64,000 nt of DNA, from positions 62,001-126,000 of the forward strand of contig NZ_LDZY01000001.1 in NCBI RefSeq assembly GCF_001029285.1, read 5' to 3'. This DNA is from Desulfosporosinus acididurans. Lineage in GTDB: Bacteria; Bacillota; Desulfitobacteriia; Desulfitobacteriales; Desulfitobacteriaceae. The translations under genes were made by a program, and so were the position numbers. Under the pieces are notes generated by a model, which worked only from the letters and a program-made list of their open reading frames with translations, was not told the DNA's origin and searched no databases. Shown here in pieces: positions 4,801 through 61,243 of the stretch. Numbering within the stretch: the first letter of the stretch is position 1; every line of letters starts with the position of its first letter.

Positions 4801-4839
4801 CTTGATCCAATCATAAGACTCCCACTTCACCAAGGGGGG
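4801..4839 (-). repeat. IS200/IS605-like end repeat, right-end type
   Basis: The plus strand reads CTTGATCCAATCATAAGAC, then a hairpin CCCACTT...AAGGGGGG. About 25 of 28 bases match the copy at 59793-59820, and the copy at 41344-41379 is related. It looks like a remnant of a mobile palindromic element. Orientation is given relative to the copy at 59796-59913. Confidence 0.6.
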
Positions 4840-6091: not shown

Positions 6092-6164
6092 TTTGAGCAC
6101 TCCATTCTAAAATTTAATATAGTTCAATCCAGAAAAGACTTAAGAAGTAGTGAGCTCCCAAATA

Positions 6165-6189
6165 CAATAATGTCCAGTGGACATTATTG
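6165..6189. promoter_or_regulatory. 25-bp perfect palindrome in the flavodiiron leader
   Basis: The two 12-base arms CAATAATGTCCA and TGGACATTATTG are separated by one base. The site lies 74-98 bases before the flavodiiron ATG and downstream of the predicted transcription start. The one-base centre is short for an RNA hairpin, so a dimeric repressor site is the likelier reading. I cannot assign the regulator. Confidence 0.6.
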
Positions 6190-6232
6190 CCGAGAAGTGG
6201 AGATCTTAAAATGCCAAGGGCACTTAGCTTAT

Positions 6233-7864: not shown

Positions 7865-7952
7865 TGGTGCCGATGACCGGAATCGAACCGGTACGGGCTA
7901 TTAACCCGCGGGATTTTAAGTCCCGTGCGTCTGCCAGTTACGCCACATCGGC
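7865..7952 (-). tRNA. tRNA-Leu (UAA)
   Basis: The anticodon loop CTTAAAA gives UAA. It has a long variable arm, the T-loop GGTTCGATTCC, a paired acceptor GCCGATG/CATCGGC and an encoded CCA. It is the last gene of the ten-tRNA cluster. Confidence 0.97.
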
Positions 7953-7955
7953 AAT

Positions 7956-8030
7956 TGGAGGCGGCACCCTGATTCGAACGAGGGGATCGAGGTTTTGCGG
8001 ACCTCTGCCTTACCACTTGGCTATGCCGCC
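7956..8030 (-). tRNA. tRNA-Cys (GCA)
   Basis: Anticodon GCA lies in the arm GAGGTCCGCAAAACCTC. The acceptor is GGCGGCA/TGCCGCC, the discriminator is U and CCA is encoded. Confidence 0.97.
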
Positions 8031-8041
8031 ATAAGTATTAC

Positions 8042-8115
8042 TGGAGCGGGTGATGAGAATCGAACTCACGTAGCTAGCTTGGAAGGCTAGTGCTCTACCA
8101 TTGAGCTACACCCGC
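8042..8115 (-). tRNA. tRNA-Gly (UCC)
   Basis: Anticodon loop CTTCCAA gives UCC. The acceptor is GCGGGTG/CACCCGC, the T-loop is GAGTTCGATTC and CCA is encoded. Confidence 0.97.
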
Positions 8116-8121
8116 AATAAA

Positions 8122-8196
8122 TGGCTCCCCGAGTAGGACTCGAACCTACAACCTACCGGTTAACAGCCGGTTGCTCCACCATTGAGCTATCGAGGA
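8122..8196 (-). tRNA. tRNA-Asn (GUU)
   Basis: Anticodon loop CTGTTAA gives GUU. The acceptor TCCTCGA/TCGGGGA includes one U-G pair. The discriminator is G and CCA is encoded. Confidence 0.97.
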
Positions 8197-8203
8197 ATGT
8201 ATC

Positions 8204-8294
8204 TGGCGGAGAAGGAGGGATTTGAACCCTCGCGGCAGTTACCCACCCTAACGGTTTAGCAAACCGTCCTCTTCAGCCACTTGAGTACTTCTCC
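8204..8294 (-). tRNA. tRNA-Ser (GCU)
   Basis: Anticodon loop TTGCTAA gives GCU. It has the long class II variable arm, the acceptor GGAGAAG/CTTCTCC and an encoded CCA. Confidence 0.97.
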
Positions 8295-8303
8295 AAGTAT
8301 ATT

Positions 8304-8388
8304 TGGTGCGGAAGACGGGACTTGAACCCGTACGGAGTTACCCACACGCCCCTCAAACGTGCGCGTCTGCCAGTTACGCCACTCCCGC
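8304..8388 (-). tRNA. tRNA-Leu (GAG)
   Basis: Anticodon loop TTGAGGG gives GAG, with stem CACGT/GCGTG. It has a class II variable arm and an encoded CCA. Confidence 0.95.
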
Positions 8389-8394
8389 AATAGC

Positions 8395-8470
8395 TGGAGC
8401 CATTGACCGGGATTGAACCGGTGACCTTATCCTTACCAAGGATACGCTCTACCGACTGAGCTACAATGGC
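8395..8470 (-). tRNA. tRNA-Thr (GGU)
   Basis: Anticodon loop TTGGTAA gives GGU. The acceptor is GCCATTG/CAATGGC and CCA is encoded. Confidence 0.97.
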
Positions 8471-8477
8471 AATATAA

Positions 8478-8566
8478 TGGCGGAGGGGGTGGGATTCGAA
8501 CCCACGGCCCCTTGCGGAGTCACTGGTTTTCAAGACCAGCTCCTTAAACCACTCGGACACCCCTCC
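8478..8566 (-). tRNA. tRNA-Ser (UGA)
   Basis: Anticodon loop CTTGAAA gives UGA. It has a class II variable arm, the acceptor GGAGGGG/CCCCTCC and an encoded CCA. Confidence 0.97.
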
Positions 8567-8585
8567 AAAAATAACACTTTTTAAT

Positions 8586-8670
<85 letters not shown>

Positions 8671-8701
8671 TTTCAATTCTTAAAATACAGAAGTTTTCTA
8701 A

Positions 8702-8777
8702 TGGTGGAGGTAAGCGGGATCGAACCGCTGACCCCCTGCTTGCAAGGCAGGTGCTCTCCCAGCTGAGCTATACCCCC
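8702..8777 (-). tRNA. tRNA-Ala (UGC)
   Basis: Anticodon loop CTTGCAA gives UGC. The acceptor is GGGGGTA/TACCTCC with wobble and CCA is encoded. It is the first gene of the cluster. Confidence 0.97.
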
Positions 8778-11347: not shown

Positions 11348-11365
11348 AAAAAAATGAAAAAGAAA

Positions 11366-11486
11366 AATAAAGCTGAATCTAGAGATTACTCTAGAGCGGG
11401 GGATTTTATTTCTATACCGGGGTGAATCGCCACTATGGCGTAGGGCTGTTACCTTCGCCCGAATCCGACAACTAACCTCGTAAGCT
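11366..11486 (+). ncRNA. Cyclic di-AMP riboswitch (ydaO/yuaA class)
   Basis: The conserved blocks occur in order: AGAGCGGGGGA, CCGGGGTGAATCG, GTAGGGCTG, CGCCCGAATCCG and CTAACCTCGTAAGC. These match the ydaO consensus. The class senses c-di-AMP and usually turns off wall-hydrolase or osmolyte-transporter genes when bound. Here it sits directly before an NlpC/P60 gene. A distinct terminator hairpin is not obvious, so control could be at translation, since the ribosome binding site is immediately downstream. Confidence 0.92.
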
Positions 11487-11504
11487 ATGAAAGGTGAAAA
11501 GGGA

Positions 11505-17599: not shown

Positions 17600-17614
17600 A
17601 CACAGTTTCTTTGT

Positions 17615-17700
17615 TTGGTAACCCGGCTATCTATCATCTTTTAGCTAGACCCGTGGCTTTGCGTCCTCAGCTCTCACTGAGTTTGCCTTTATCACTGAAT
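17615..17700 (-). ncRNA. Cyclic di-GMP-I riboswitch (GEMM-I)
   Basis: The conserved pieces appear in order on the minus strand: AAAGGCAAAC, GAGGACGCAAAGCCAC, GGGTCTA, and GATAGCCGGGTTACC. These match the GEMM-I aptamer, including the tetraloop-receptor segments. The downstream terminator at 17566-17599 suggests transcriptional control. Since the gene is a c-di-GMP phosphodiesterase, an ON switch would give negative feedback (inference). The remaining 17701-18025 holds divergent promoters but no gene. Confidence 0.92.
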
Positions 17701-32448: not shown

Positions 32449-32507
32449 ACAAAATGCATTAAGCAAAAGTCCGGCAATATGCCGGACTTTTGCTTAATGC
32501 ATTTTGT
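32449..32507. terminator. Long perfect terminator hairpin between convergent genes
   Basis: The two arms of 28 bases are perfectly complementary and separated by ATA. The core reads AAGTCCGGCA / TGCCGGACTT and the base is ACAAAATGCATT / AATGCATTTTGT. It serves the radical SAM gene and the chemoreceptor gene. Confidence 0.85.
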
Positions 32508-41219: not shown

Positions 41220-41270
41220 AGTGAACTCGTTCAGCTAAAGCTGAACATCGGGGCTTCGGTGAGGGACTCT
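41220..41270 (+). repeat. IS200/IS605-like end repeat, left-end type
   Basis: AGTGAACTCGTTCAGC, TAAA and GCTGAAC form a hairpin, followed by CGGGGCTTCGGTGAGGGACTC. Near copies are at 56600-56645 and 59863-59913. Located 65 bases after the lexA stop. Confidence 0.65.
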
Positions 41271-41290
41271 AAATAGTAAAGTGAAAAATA

Positions 41291-41331
41291 ATGGGCTGGA
41301 ACAAACGTCTTTCTCGTTTGCTCCAGCCCAT
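41291..41331 (-). terminator. Intrinsic terminator after ddl
   Basis: ATGGGCTGGA...CAAACG pairs with CGTTTG...TCCAGCCCAT. On the minus strand ATTATTTTTC follows. It lies about 120 bases beyond the ddl stop, past a repeat. Confidence 0.75.
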
Positions 41332-41343
41332 TGCCTTATAAAC

Positions 41344-41379
41344 TAATTCAATTGTAAGAATCCCACTTCTACAAGTGGG
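41344..41379 (-). repeat. IS200/IS605-like end repeat, right-end type
   Basis: The plus strand reads AATTCAATTGTAAGAATC, then the hairpin CCCACTT/AAGTGGG. It is related to 4801-4839 and 59793-59820. Confidence 0.55.
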
Positions 41380-41450
41380 CGTAATTCCCATACCATGAAC
41401 CATGCTTCGTTTTGGTACAATCCATCCTTCAGCGCGATAGCATTTGTTCA

Positions 41451-56407: not shown

Positions 56408-56599
56408 TATAATCCCCCCCAAAATCCATATTCGATAGTTTAACCACTGATTATTGTTATACAATTCTTATCATAGGCTATTTTCCTGAAATGCGCTCCA
56501 TCGAAATTGGTAATTTGTGCATTAAAATCATTTGTCCTTCGGCACGATAAGATTTGTTATTGGCTAGGCGCTTTCGGGGAAACTGTCCACAGGACATTT

Positions 56600-56645
56600 T
56601 CGTCACCGAAGCATCGATGTTCAGCTTTAGCCGAACGAGTTCACT
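56600..56645 (-). repeat. IS200/IS605-like end repeat at the mutS stop
   Basis: On the minus strand AGTGAACTCGTTCGGC, TAAAGC and TGAAC form the hairpin, followed by CGATGCTTCGGTGA. Its first two bases complete the mutS stop codon TAG. Confidence 0.65.
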
Positions 56646-59190
56646 AAGAAGTTGATTGGATTCGATCTCTTAGATCATAGAGATACTGTAAGGCTTGACG
56701 TGAGGTCATATCTTCTAATGGCAGTTGAGCCAATTCCTCTAAAATTGGATGGGTCTGCGGAACATCAAAAAGGGAGAACTGGGTTACAGCTTGGGAAGAA
56801 TCTATTGGACTAGGGACAGATTTGGACGCCTCTAGTTCCAACAGTAAGGTTTTAGCTCTCTTGAGGAGCTCATGGGGAAGACCGGCTAAACGGGCCACTT
56901 GAATACCATAACTTCGATCGGCACGGCCCGGTAATATCTTATGTAAAAAGACAATGTCGTCTCCGCGTTCTTTTACGCCGACATGAAGATTGAAAAGGCC
57001 ATTAAAATTATCTTCAAGTTGGGTCAATTCATGATAATGCGTTGCAAAAAGGGTTTTAGGGTTGAAATCAGGATGTTGAACTAAGTATTCTGCGACAGCC
57101 CAAGCAATGCTTAAACCATCAAAGGTTGCCGTTCCTCGTCCAATCTCGTCCAAAATGATTAAGCTCTTCCTGGTAGCATATTTTAAAATATGTGCTACCT
57201 CATGCATTTCGACCATAAAGGTGCTTTGTCCTGCCGCTAAATCATCCGACGCCCCTACCCGGGTAAAAATTCGATCAACTAAACTAATTGTCGCTTGTTT
57301 GGCGGGCACAAAGGATCCAACGTGTGCCATCAAGACAATAAGCGCTACCTGTCTCATATAAGTAGACTTTCCTGCCATATTGGGCCCGGTAATGATCGCC
57401 AAATGTCGCTCCCTGGACAACTGCGTATCGTTCGGTACAAAGACACCCGCCTCTAACATATCTTCTACGACTGGATGCCGCCCCTCTGAAATTGAAAGCT
57501 CACCATCTATTGTTATTTGAGGACGAATGTAGCGTTTACGCACTGCAACTTCAGCCAAGCTTACGAAGACATCGATTTCTGCTAAATTATCGGCCGCCTT
57601 GAGGATAGCCTGAGTATAGGAACGAACATCTTCTCTAAGCTCCAGGAAAAGTTGAAACTCTAATTCCTTTAATCGTTCTTCAGCACCTAGGATTTTTTCT
57701 TCATACTCTTTTAGTTCCGGAGTTATGAATCGTTCCGCATTTGAAAGAGTCTGTTTCCTGATATAAGCCTCAGGTACAAGATGGGCATTGGAATGCGTGA
57801 TTTCTATATAATAGCCAAAAACTTTGGTATAGCCAATTTTTAAGGATCGTATCCTAGTCCTTTCACGTTCGGCGTTTTCAAGCTTAGCGACCCACTCTTT
57901 TCCACCCGTTGCAATAGAGCGCAATTCATCCACCTCTTGGGAATATCCGGTTCTAATGATATTTCCATCCCGCAGAGATATAGGCGGAGAAGGATTGAGA
58001 GCATTAAGAAGTGTATTGACTAAAGGATCAAGTCCCTCCAATACAGGAATTTTCCTTTTCAAAATAGTTGCAGTGTTTGAGTTAAGAATCTCACGAATTG
58101 CCGGTAGAAGGGCCAAGGTTTGAGCCAGGGATAATAAGTCCTTAGCATTGGCCGTTCCGTAAGATACTCTTCCCATTAATCGTTCCAAATCATAGACTTT
58201 AGCCAAGATTTTCATCAAATCTTGACGTAAAAAGGAATCATGTGTTAACTCTTCAACAGTATTTAAACGCTGTTCAATATCAGCTTGCACGAGCAAAGGT
58301 TTATCGATCCAATGTCTCAGTAATCGTCCGCCTAAAGCAGTTTGAGTCAGATCGAGGACAGACAAGAGTGTCCCTTTTTTACCCTGATTTCTTAAGGATT
58401 CAGTAAGTTCAAGGTTTCGTCGAGTCCACTGGTCGAGAAACATCCATTGCTCTGAGCGATACGTTTTGATCTCGACAATATGCGAGGGATCAACGCCCGG
58501 CATCGTTTCCAGCAAATAGTCCCAGAGAGCGGATGCTGCTGAAGCCGCCACAGGGAATTCTTGAAGCAAAGGAGCCTGAGCAGAGAAGCGCAGTTTAAAT
58601 ACCGTACTCTCATAAGACTTAAGATCTCGAACACTGCAGTAGTATCCAGACCAAATTTTTGCTTTCTTTATAAGTTCAGGCGGCAGCAAAATTTCAGCAG
58701 GATTAATGCGGGAAAGCTCGGCGAGCAAGGCCTCAACTTCCGAGGTCTGAAAAATAGCAAACTCTCCTGTTGACAAATCTAAAAAGGACAAGCCCCACTG
58801 AACATTAAAAAAAACACTCGCCAAATAACGATTGCTGCGTTCAGAAATCGACTCAGTTAAAGTACCCGGAGAGACAATACGAATGATTTCTCGCTTAACA
58901 ATACCCTTCGTAGCTTTCGGGTCTTCAACTTGCTCGCAAATGGCAACTTTATGCCCCGTACTTACGAGTTTTACCATATATGTCTCAACTGCGTGATAGG
59001 GAACACCGCACATAGGTATCCGTTTGCCTTCCCCCGCGTCTCGACTCGTTAGGGCAATTTGCAGGATCGGTGCTGCTAATTCAGCATCTTCACCAAACAT
59101 TTCATAAAAATCACCAAGTCGATAAAAGAGTATCGCGTCAGGAACCGTTGCTTTTATTCCTTGATATTGTTTCATCATCGGGGTGGTCAT
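56644..59190 (-). CDS. mutS: DNA mismatch recognition protein MutS
   Basis: The 848 residues cover all MutS domains. The mismatch-binding FYEMFGEDA is near residue 27, the Walker A motif GPNMAGKSTYMRQ near 610, the Walker B ILDEIGRGT and the signature TFATHYHEL follow. The length is normal. The C-terminal helix-turn-helix end is complete (YDLRDRIQSTS). It starts with ATG behind GAGGAGATA. The stop codon TAG is formed by one gene base and the first two bases of a repeat element. Confidence 0.97.
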   Translation of the reverse strand: MTTPMMKQYQGIKATVPDAILFYRLGDFYEMFGEDAELAAPILQIALTSRDAGEGKRIPMCGVPYHAVETYMVKLVSTGHKVAICEQVEDPKATKGIVKREIIRIVSPGTLTESISERSNRYLASVFFNVQWGLSFLDLSTGEFAIFQTSEVEALLAELSRINPAEILLPPELIKKAKIWSGYYCSVRDLKSYESTVFKLRFSAQAPLLQEFPVAASAASALWDYLLETMPGVDPSHIVEIKTYRSEQWMFLDQWTRRNLELTESLRNQGKKGTLLSVLDLTQTALGGRLLRHWIDKPLLVQADIEQRLNTVEELTHDSFLRQDLMKILAKVYDLERLMGRVSYGTANAKDLLSLAQTLALLPAIREILNSNTATILKRKIPVLEGLDPLVNTLLNALNPSPPISLRDGNIIRTGYSQEVDELRSIATGGKEWVAKLENAERERTRIRSLKIGYTKVFGYYIEITHSNAHLVPEAYIRKQTLSNAERFITPELKEYEEKILGAEERLKELEFQLFLELREDVRSYTQAILKAADNLAEIDVFVSLAEVAVRKRYIRPQITIDGELSISEGRHPVVEDMLEAGVFVPNDTQLSRERHLAIITGPNMAGKSTYMRQVALIVLMAHVGSFVPAKQATISLVDRIFTRVGASDDLAAGQSTFMVEMHEVAHILKYATRKSLIILDEIGRGTATFDGLSIAWAVAEYLVQHPDFNPKTLFATHYHELTQLEDNFNGLFNLHVGVKERGDDIVFLHKILPGRADRSYGIQVARLAGLPHELLKRAKTLLLELEASKSVPSPIDSSQAVTQFSLFDVPQTHPILEELAQLPLEDMTSRQALQYLYDLRDRIQSTS

Positions 59191-59699: not shown

Positions 59700-59795
59700 T
59701 TATACACACCTCCATAATTGTTACATTCTACATCAAACAACTCAATTCCTGCTTAACTCCATCTGAGCAGTTAAAAAGTGTTTAATAATCACTTT

Positions 59796-59913
59796 GATTC
59801 AATCGTAAGACTCCCACTTCTATAAACGGGAGTGGGTCCTCCGTACTCTGCTTCAGTGGGGTAGAGTCCCCCACCGAAGTCTCGATGTTCAGCTTTAGAT
59901 GAACGAGTTCACT
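59796..59913 (-). repeat. Complete-looking palindromic repeat element, 118 bases
   Basis: On the minus strand it begins AGTGAACTCGTTCATCTAAAG with a hairpin, carries an internal GACTTCGGTGGGGGACTC, and ends with hairpin CCCGTTTATAGAAGTGGGAG and TCTTACGATTGAATCA. Both end types of the other copies are present in one unit, so it could be a non-autonomous IS200/IS605-like unit. It begins at the miaB stop codon. Confidence 0.65.
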
Positions 59914-61243
59914 CCACGAGTTCGCCTACGAGGGTCCATGACCCTGCCTCCAGAATTCGCAGAGATACTAAGGAACCGATGATTTCCTGAGGGCCATCAA
60001 AAACAACAAGAATATTTCCACGCGTCCGGCCAGTCAGGCGATCAGGATTGGTCTTACTTGGTCCTTCAACCAAAACCTCATAACATTTCCCGAGCATTCT
60101 TTGTCTTAGTTGATAACTTTCTTCGTTTTGCAGGCTCATCAATTTTTGCAATCGCTGCTTTTTGACAGGCAAAGGAATCTGCTCTTCCATACTCGCCGCC
60201 GGTGTGCCTGAGCGTTTTGAATACATAAAGGTAAAAGCCTGACTATAATGTCCTAAACCAATCATTAAAAGGGTTTGTTCGAAGTCTTCCTCAGTTTCGC
60301 CAGGAAAACCAACAATGATATCAGTTGTCAGTGTCGCCTGAGGAAGAAGCTCGCGAATTTTTTCGACGATACTCAAATAGTATTCCCGAGTATATTGCCG
60401 ATTCATACAAGCTAAAATAGAATTACTGCCCGATTGAAGCGGCAGATGAAAGTGTTCGCATAGTTTACTTCCTTTGGCTATTGTCTGAATTAATTTATCC
60501 GACAAGTCTTTGGGGTGAGAGGTAATAAAACGCACACGCAAAAGCTCAGGTATTTGATCCACTTCCTGCAGTAAATCTGCGAAATCATAGGGAGGGTCGA
60601 AATCTTTTCCGTAGGAATTTACATTTTGCCCTAGTAAAGTAACTTCTTTACAACCACTGGCCACCAGATTCTTAATTTCTTGAATAATATCCTCCGGCTT
60701 GCGGCTTCTCTCTCTCCCCCGAACATGGGGAACAATACAATACGAACAAAAATTATCACAGCCGTACATAATATTCACATTGGCCTGAAGTTTTCCTTTT
60801 TCTGCCAAAGGTGTCGATTCTTTTGTTTCATGAGGTTCCTGCCAAACCTCAGCAACTTTTGCTCCAGTGTCAGAACGATGCAGCAGCTCAGAAAATTCGT
60901 GCAAGTTGTGAGTCCCCATCCAGATGTCTACGTGGGGAGCACGTTTTTGCAGCCGCTCTAAGGCACCAGGTTGTTGAACCATGCAACCGCTGATTGCAAT
61001 TTTTAAGTTTGGATTCTTTTCCTTTAGTTTTTTAAGATCACCGATTTTGCCTAAGATTTTATTTTCAGCACTTTCTCTGACGCAGCATGTATTAACGATA
61101 ATTAAGTCAGCATGTTCAAGGTCATCCGTTCTATTATATCCTTCTTGCCGTGTAATTTCTGTCAGAGTCTCAGCATCCCTTTCTGACATTTGACAGCCAT
61201 ATGTTAAAGTGACTACATTTTTTTCCTTACTCAAGTGGTTCAA
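59909..61243 (-). CDS. miaB: tRNA-2-methylthio-N6-isopentenyladenosine synthase MiaB
   Basis: This radical SAM methylthiotransferase modifies A37 after MiaA. The N-terminal cluster cysteines are in TYGCQMSERD, NTCCVRESAE and SGCMVQQPG. The radical SAM motif is CDNFCSYC (CxxxCxxC) in MYGCDNFCSYCIVPHVRGRE. A TRAM domain ends the protein. The 444 residues are standard. The stop TGA lies in the AGTGA start of a repeat element, so the last residues (ELVE) may be slightly altered. Confidence 0.97.
   Translation of the reverse strand: MNHLSKEKNVVTLTYGCQMSERDAETLTEITRQEGYNRTDDLEHADLIIVNTCCVRESAENKILGKIGDLKKLKEKNPNLKIAISGCMVQQPGALERLQKRAPHVDIWMGTHNLHEFSELLHRSDTGAKVAEVWQEPHETKESTPLAEKGKLQANVNIMYGCDNFCSYCIVPHVRGRERSRKPEDIIQEIKNLVASGCKEVTLLGQNVNSYGKDFDPPYDFADLLQEVDQIPELLRVRFITSHPKDLSDKLIQTIAKGSKLCEHFHLPLQSGSNSILACMNRQYTREYYLSIVEKIRELLPQATLTTDIIVGFPGETEEDFEQTLLMIGLGHYSQAFTFMYSKRSGTPAASMEEQIPLPVKKQRLQKLMSLQNEESYQLRQRMLGKCYEVLVEGPSKTNPDRLTGRTRGNILVVFDGPQEIIGSLVSLRILEAGSWTLVGELVE

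Follow-up and report, generated by a model that had tools for sequence, protein, structure and literature searches.

A repeat whose left end closes both mutS and miaB of Desulfosporosinus acididurans is probably a non-autonomous, palindrome-associated element of the IS200/IS605 type, which collects at stop codons largely through its insertion target A↓AT(A/C)A (the arrow marks the junction). The window analysed here is a stretch of 64,000 nt containing both genes; copies at stop codons were tallied over about 1.65 Mb of the same genome, part of the whole. Desulfosporosinus sp. FKB (G008), the closest relative, and genome G009 served as references for empty sites.

Gene ends, element ends and target

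Both mutS and miaB end at the left end of the repeat, as the first-pass annotation had stated (Table 1). At miaB the site is empty in FKB and in G009. The empty site reads GTGGA↓ATCAAAGTGATG in FKB and the filled one GTGGA(GTGAAC...GATTGA)ATCAAAGTGATT, which changes the gene end from GAA TCA AAG TGA to GAG TGA with the loss of two residues (Ser-Lys). The earlier reading of this end, GAG and then TGA built with bases of the element, is confirmed by the empty site, where the element contributes G-TGA. The mutS stop had been read as T followed by AG from the element; an element base is indeed used, but according to the empty-site comparison the element gives the G alone (TA+G) and the A belongs to the target.

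Relatives without the element at this place have a MutS that runs about two residues further and finishes in ...QS(T/S)E(T/A)M, and the insertion appears to have removed about two residues. It is shared with FKB and is therefore old; the pre-insertion target is not readable, since the right half of the element is missing. Additionally, G009 carries a separate copy 14 nt beyond its mutS stop. The copies at mutS and miaB belong to different forms (long and short) and have 42 nt in common at 90% identity.

Table 1. Positions of the repeat copies and the genes that they end in the 64,000 nt window
Feature	Position	Strand	Detail or basis
mutS	56644..59190	-	TIGR01070, 1041 bits, cut-off passed
mutS 3' end	stop TAG 56644-56646	-	codons ACT TCT, then stop; G at 56644 is an element base
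Element copy at mutS	56535..56644	-	long form, right-truncated; nhmmer with repeat models; remnant at the same site in FKB (G008)
miaB	59909..61243	-	TIGR01574, 532 bits, cut-off passed
miaB 3' end	stop TGA 59909-59911	-	codons GTG GAG, then stop, supplied by the element
Element copy at miaB	59799..59912	-	full short form, GTGAACTCG...GATTGA, 114 nt, three hairpins
Former end of miaB with the displaced target	59789..59798	-	A TCA AAG TGA, equal to the C-terminal codons and stop of miaB in G008
Third left end	41221..41271	+	left part only, intergenic
Right half of a long-form copy	41345..41448	-	inverted beside the preceding left part
Right-end fragment	4803..4839	-	
Long-form internal fragment	6160..6194	+	

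Fewer than ten clean empty sites, on few of which the single-base placement of the boundary is based, put the limits of the element at GTGAACTCG...TTGG, with A↓ATAAA or A↓ATCAAA as the insertion site. Read from the opposite strand, the target is TTKAT↓T and the element CCAATCG...GAGTTCAC (CCAATCGTAAGACTCCC...GAGTTCAC). For mutS and a number of further copies the empty site cannot be reconstructed. Among the sites that can be read, AAGCA↓ATAGGTA became AAGCA(GTGAAC...AACTAG)ATAAATC at C1:168960, and AAGTA↓ATAAATG became AAGTA(GTGAAC...CATTGG)ATAAATT at C3:326873. By this comparison the element starts with the G of AGTGAAC and the preceding A is a target base. In the automatically read junctions, the right-end flank was ATAAA in 28/81 cases and ATCAA in 6/81; the left flank was near random with a mild A excess only, while the A of AGTGAAC was present in 72/74. 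Together, the junction reads and the empty sites point to A↓AT(A/C)AA as the target. Limits of AGTGAAC...TTG with the target N↓RATAAA were rejected because at three sites R was not the same base in the filled and the empty state; GTGAAC...TTGG with A↓ATAAA agrees with those three sites.

Structure, relatives and mobilisation of the repeat

An initial search of the genome returned 302 to 349 candidate locations, the best of which align end to end, and a profile search (nhmmer) of 1.246 Mb of the genome found 118 element pieces; many copies are truncated. Copies measure 114-190 nt and occur in a short form of ~120 nt and a long form of ~188 nt, the latter being the short form with an extra hairpin module within the second hairpin. 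A third form of 252 nt is present in several near-identical copies in one Desulfosporosinus MAG (L382, L383, L369, L376, L379, L336, L358), which suggests recent spread. The element has no coding capacity and encloses no transposase ORF, its termini are unlike each other and form no terminal inverted repeats, and a target duplication is not visible.

Pairing was counted directly, copy by copy, since RNAalifold was uninformative on the gappy alignment. In 55 copies hairpins H1, H2 and H3 were paired in 97%, 89% and 93% of cells, respectively, and one position of H3 showed the alternative pairs T-A (28), A-T (10) and C-G (5). H1 lies 8 nt from one terminus and H3 ~11 nt from the other, and these two end hairpins differ. 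No curated Rfam family was matched by the element. Most Desulfosporosinus genomes carry it, as do two genera belonging to a second family, and every genome sampled from a third family lacks it; among named records, the exact left end belongs nearly always to Desulfosporosinus.

These properties resemble those of the PATEs (palindrome-associated transposable elements) of Haloquadratum, which derive from IS605 and are defined by near-terminal palindromes, the lack of inverted repeats, an unduplicated target and, at one end, a targeting sequence of 4-5 bp (PMC3119063). PATEs share with the repeat a non-coding size, the absence of terminal inverted repeats and target duplication, near-terminal palindromes, a short one-sided targeting sequence, a high copy number and mobility even without intact IS200-type transposases (PMC3119063). 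They belong to another phylum and are unlike it in sequence; for the repeat, the analysis found no IS605 parent that has its ends, and a link between target and stop codon, as in the repeat, was not among the PATE features considered here (PMC3119063). ISDra2 inserts 3' of TTGAT and uses single-stranded DNA and subterminal hairpins (PMC2806898). Like ISDra2 and IS608, the repeat is inserted 3' of a pentanucleotide (TTGAT in ISDra2, TTTAT or TTGAT here), has subterminal hairpins and makes no target duplication; unlike them, it contains neither tnpA nor tnpB. A precedent for IS elements that target stop codons was not found in the literature searched.

Presumably, a Y1 (HUH) transposase provided in trans recognises the ends by their hairpins, cuts them in single-stranded DNA and joins the element 3' of TTKAT, giving the strand TTTAT↓CCAATCG...GAGTTCAC↓T. 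The Y1 and TnpB loci inspected in the same genome and the genus included no autonomous parent with matching ends, and no pair of left and right ends 230-4000 nt apart encloses a transposase. A copy beside TnpA in G022 was rejected as the parent; it is a neighbour only, and the IS starts after TTAC and has other ends. An origin as a TnpB omega-RNA remnant was rejected as well (no Rfam match at the element; TnpB loci without the element except as an unrelated neighbour), a classical DDE-derived MITE does not fit the missing terminal inverted repeats and target duplication, and a group II intron was set aside, the GTG start being the sole feature looked at.

The mobiliser may instead be a single-copy RAYT-like protein (C20:24598-25395; Y1_Tnp match, REP_Tyr_transpos just under the cut-off), which would make the repeat a REP-like system and not the PATE of a lost IS605. 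We regard this as a possible but less favoured reading. Relatives of this protein occur in most element-carrying genomes and are the sole Y1 proteins found in G002, G006, G007, G008 and G011, and REP/BIME sequences are likewise palindromic, lie between genes and number in the hundreds in a genome (PMC2817692). However, the repeat differs from REP/BIME by its length of 114-190 nt and its two unlike terminal hairpins, and the RAYT loci examined have no adjoining element, unlike the described RAYTs (PMC2817692). Furthermore, G014 has many copies and no RAYT match, and G033 and G040 have a RAYT match and no element, a comparison confounded by phylogeny. A lost or unsampled IS200/IS605 TnpA is at least as possible a mobiliser as the RAYT.

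Insertion into and replacement of stop codons

The hexamer AATAAA includes TAA, and stop codons thereby become hot spots for insertion. A gene end xAA TAR is converted to xAG TGA, with the stop at the same codon and a synonymous change for Lys, Gln and Glu, and TAA TAA or TAA TCA gives TAG. An in-frame target within the last codons brings an earlier stop from the element at the cost of a few residues, as at miaB; in the third frame the protein is extended by Val-Asn-Ser-Phe-Ser before TAA. In 1.246 Mb of genome, the left end supplied the stop of a codirectional gene in 17 of the 74 cases (23%), with TGA, TAG and third-frame outcomes at 9, 3 and 5 left ends.

Empty-site pairs with G008 and G009 revealed these exchanges directly: AAA TAA to AAA TGA at C1:12754, CAA TAG to CAG TGA at C1:168960, AAA TAG to AAG TGA at C1:128961, AAA TAA to AAG TGA at C2:238154, AGA TAA to GGA TAG at C3:67757, and AAG TAA TAAATG to AAG TAG...TTGG↓ATAAAT at C3:326873. 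Orthologous 3' ends were located in G008 or G009 for all 17 stop-site genes, and of the 12 genes in the TGA/TAG class, 7 (these six and C2:190403) have the stop codon in the identical position in at least one element-free relative. The G009 orthologue of the gene at C2:99912 carries an insertion at another codon. Several stop-site copies, that at mutS included, are common to FKB, so such insertions persist.

As a null we took every AATAAA of the same sequence that does not lie in the interior of a gene: insertion would create xAG TGA or TAG at 6.7% of these, and at 9.4% a gene would be closed within its last 24 nt. The motif-matched expectation is ~7 for the 17 observed (P 4e-4) and ~5 for the 12 (16%) of the xAG TGA or TAG class (P = 0.004). 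Wider counts, in which gene calls were unverified individually, lead in the same direction, with 23/92 gene-ending copies in an extended set from the same genome, some of the genes being short, 3/21 in FKB, and 12 of about 91 at other Desulfosporosinus loci, a sample of exact left ends that overlaps FKB. Copies thus abut stop codons far above chance, as had been suspected from mutS and miaB, and most of the association is accounted for by the motif.

The hexamer predicts fewer stop-site copies than observed, and therefore a further factor is needed, either selection or an unseen targeting feature. The excess over the motif expectation is 2.4-fold for 17 against ~7 (two- to three-fold overall) and probably reflects purifying selection; copies that land in a gene, a promoter or a ribosome site would presumably be lost, leaving survivors clustered on stops. 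A real advantage of copies at stops, or additional targeting, is a less simple possibility. The first-pass annotation had offered a target preference for gene ends or selection for insertions that keep the frame short. Preference together with selection holds in outline, but what is preferred is a hexamer with TAA and not gene ends as such; in the 7 of 12 genes the native stop was replaced at the same codon and the frame was not shortened.

It is conceivable, and in our view improbable, that the match between a target containing TAA (A↓ATAAA) and a left end providing G-TGA is an adaptation, the element having been shaped by evolution to hit stop codons and restore them. If so, its spread would do the host almost no harm, and that adaptation would be reflected in the surplus of copies at stops over what the motif predicts.

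Selection as the whole account, with insertion random relative to stops and survival of those copies that harm neither genes nor promoters, is unlikely. Gene interiors are almost free of copies (3/74 left ends), in line with such selection, and the excess over the motif-matched expectation persists. Against it, if the motif were ignored, xAG TGA or TAG would arise at only ~1% of the positions allowed, compared with 12/74 (P 2e-11), and A↓AT(A/C)A is common to filled and empty sites.

Least probable of all, and very doubtful, is that the hairpins were selected as 3' mRNA elements acting in stability, processing or termination with ribosome release, so that helpful stop copies were kept; a processing or stability role had been raised in the first-pass annotation. 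The hairpins are strong and their variation preserves pairs, several stop copies persisted in FKB too, and the excess above the motif expectation would fit. However, pairing is equally expected from a transposase that reads hairpins in single-stranded DNA, copies are as common on start-facing sides as on the others (37 vs 37), and many copies are truncated and none matches an Rfam family. There is also no U-tract or terminator-like match on the gene strand: the final hairpin is followed by CTTACGATTG with no T run, and a search for intrinsic terminators gave no minus-strand match near mutS or miaB.

Under the favoured reading of targeting followed by selection, a mobile element gathers at stop codons for a reason lying in the sequence itself, TAA in the target and TGA from the element end, with proteins almost unchanged. 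The repeat adds a new family to a class of elements that is already known; its stop-containing target and replacing end are unusual and need no new principle. For annotation of Desulfosporosinus this means that a mobile element can be the source of an annotated stop codon or C-terminus. With its hundreds of copies, many of which can be dated by comparison with close relatives, the family is also a useful record of IS200/IS605-like insertions.

Further copies and features of the window

The left-end sequence AGTGAACTCG has three exact matches in the window, at 56636-56645 (-), 59904-59913 (-) and 41220-41229 (+). At the third, positions 41220-41448, a left part (+) and a right half (-) stand head to head with a gap of 73 nt, which holds a hairpin GGGCTGGAACAAACG...GTTTGCTCCAGCCC. 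Elsewhere, at locus L039, the start of the left end, AGTGAACTCAA, is repeated in tandem immediately before the element whose left end lies at C3:187461, like a duplicated terminus.

The window further contains a c-di-AMP riboswitch (ydaO/yuaA leader) at 11361-11501 (89.7 bits), a c-di-GMP-I-GGC riboswitch at 17613-17696 (-) (70.7 bits) and ten clustered tRNA genes at 7868-8777 (-). An intergenic perfect inverted repeat of 28 bp with a loop of 3 nt lies at 32449-32507.
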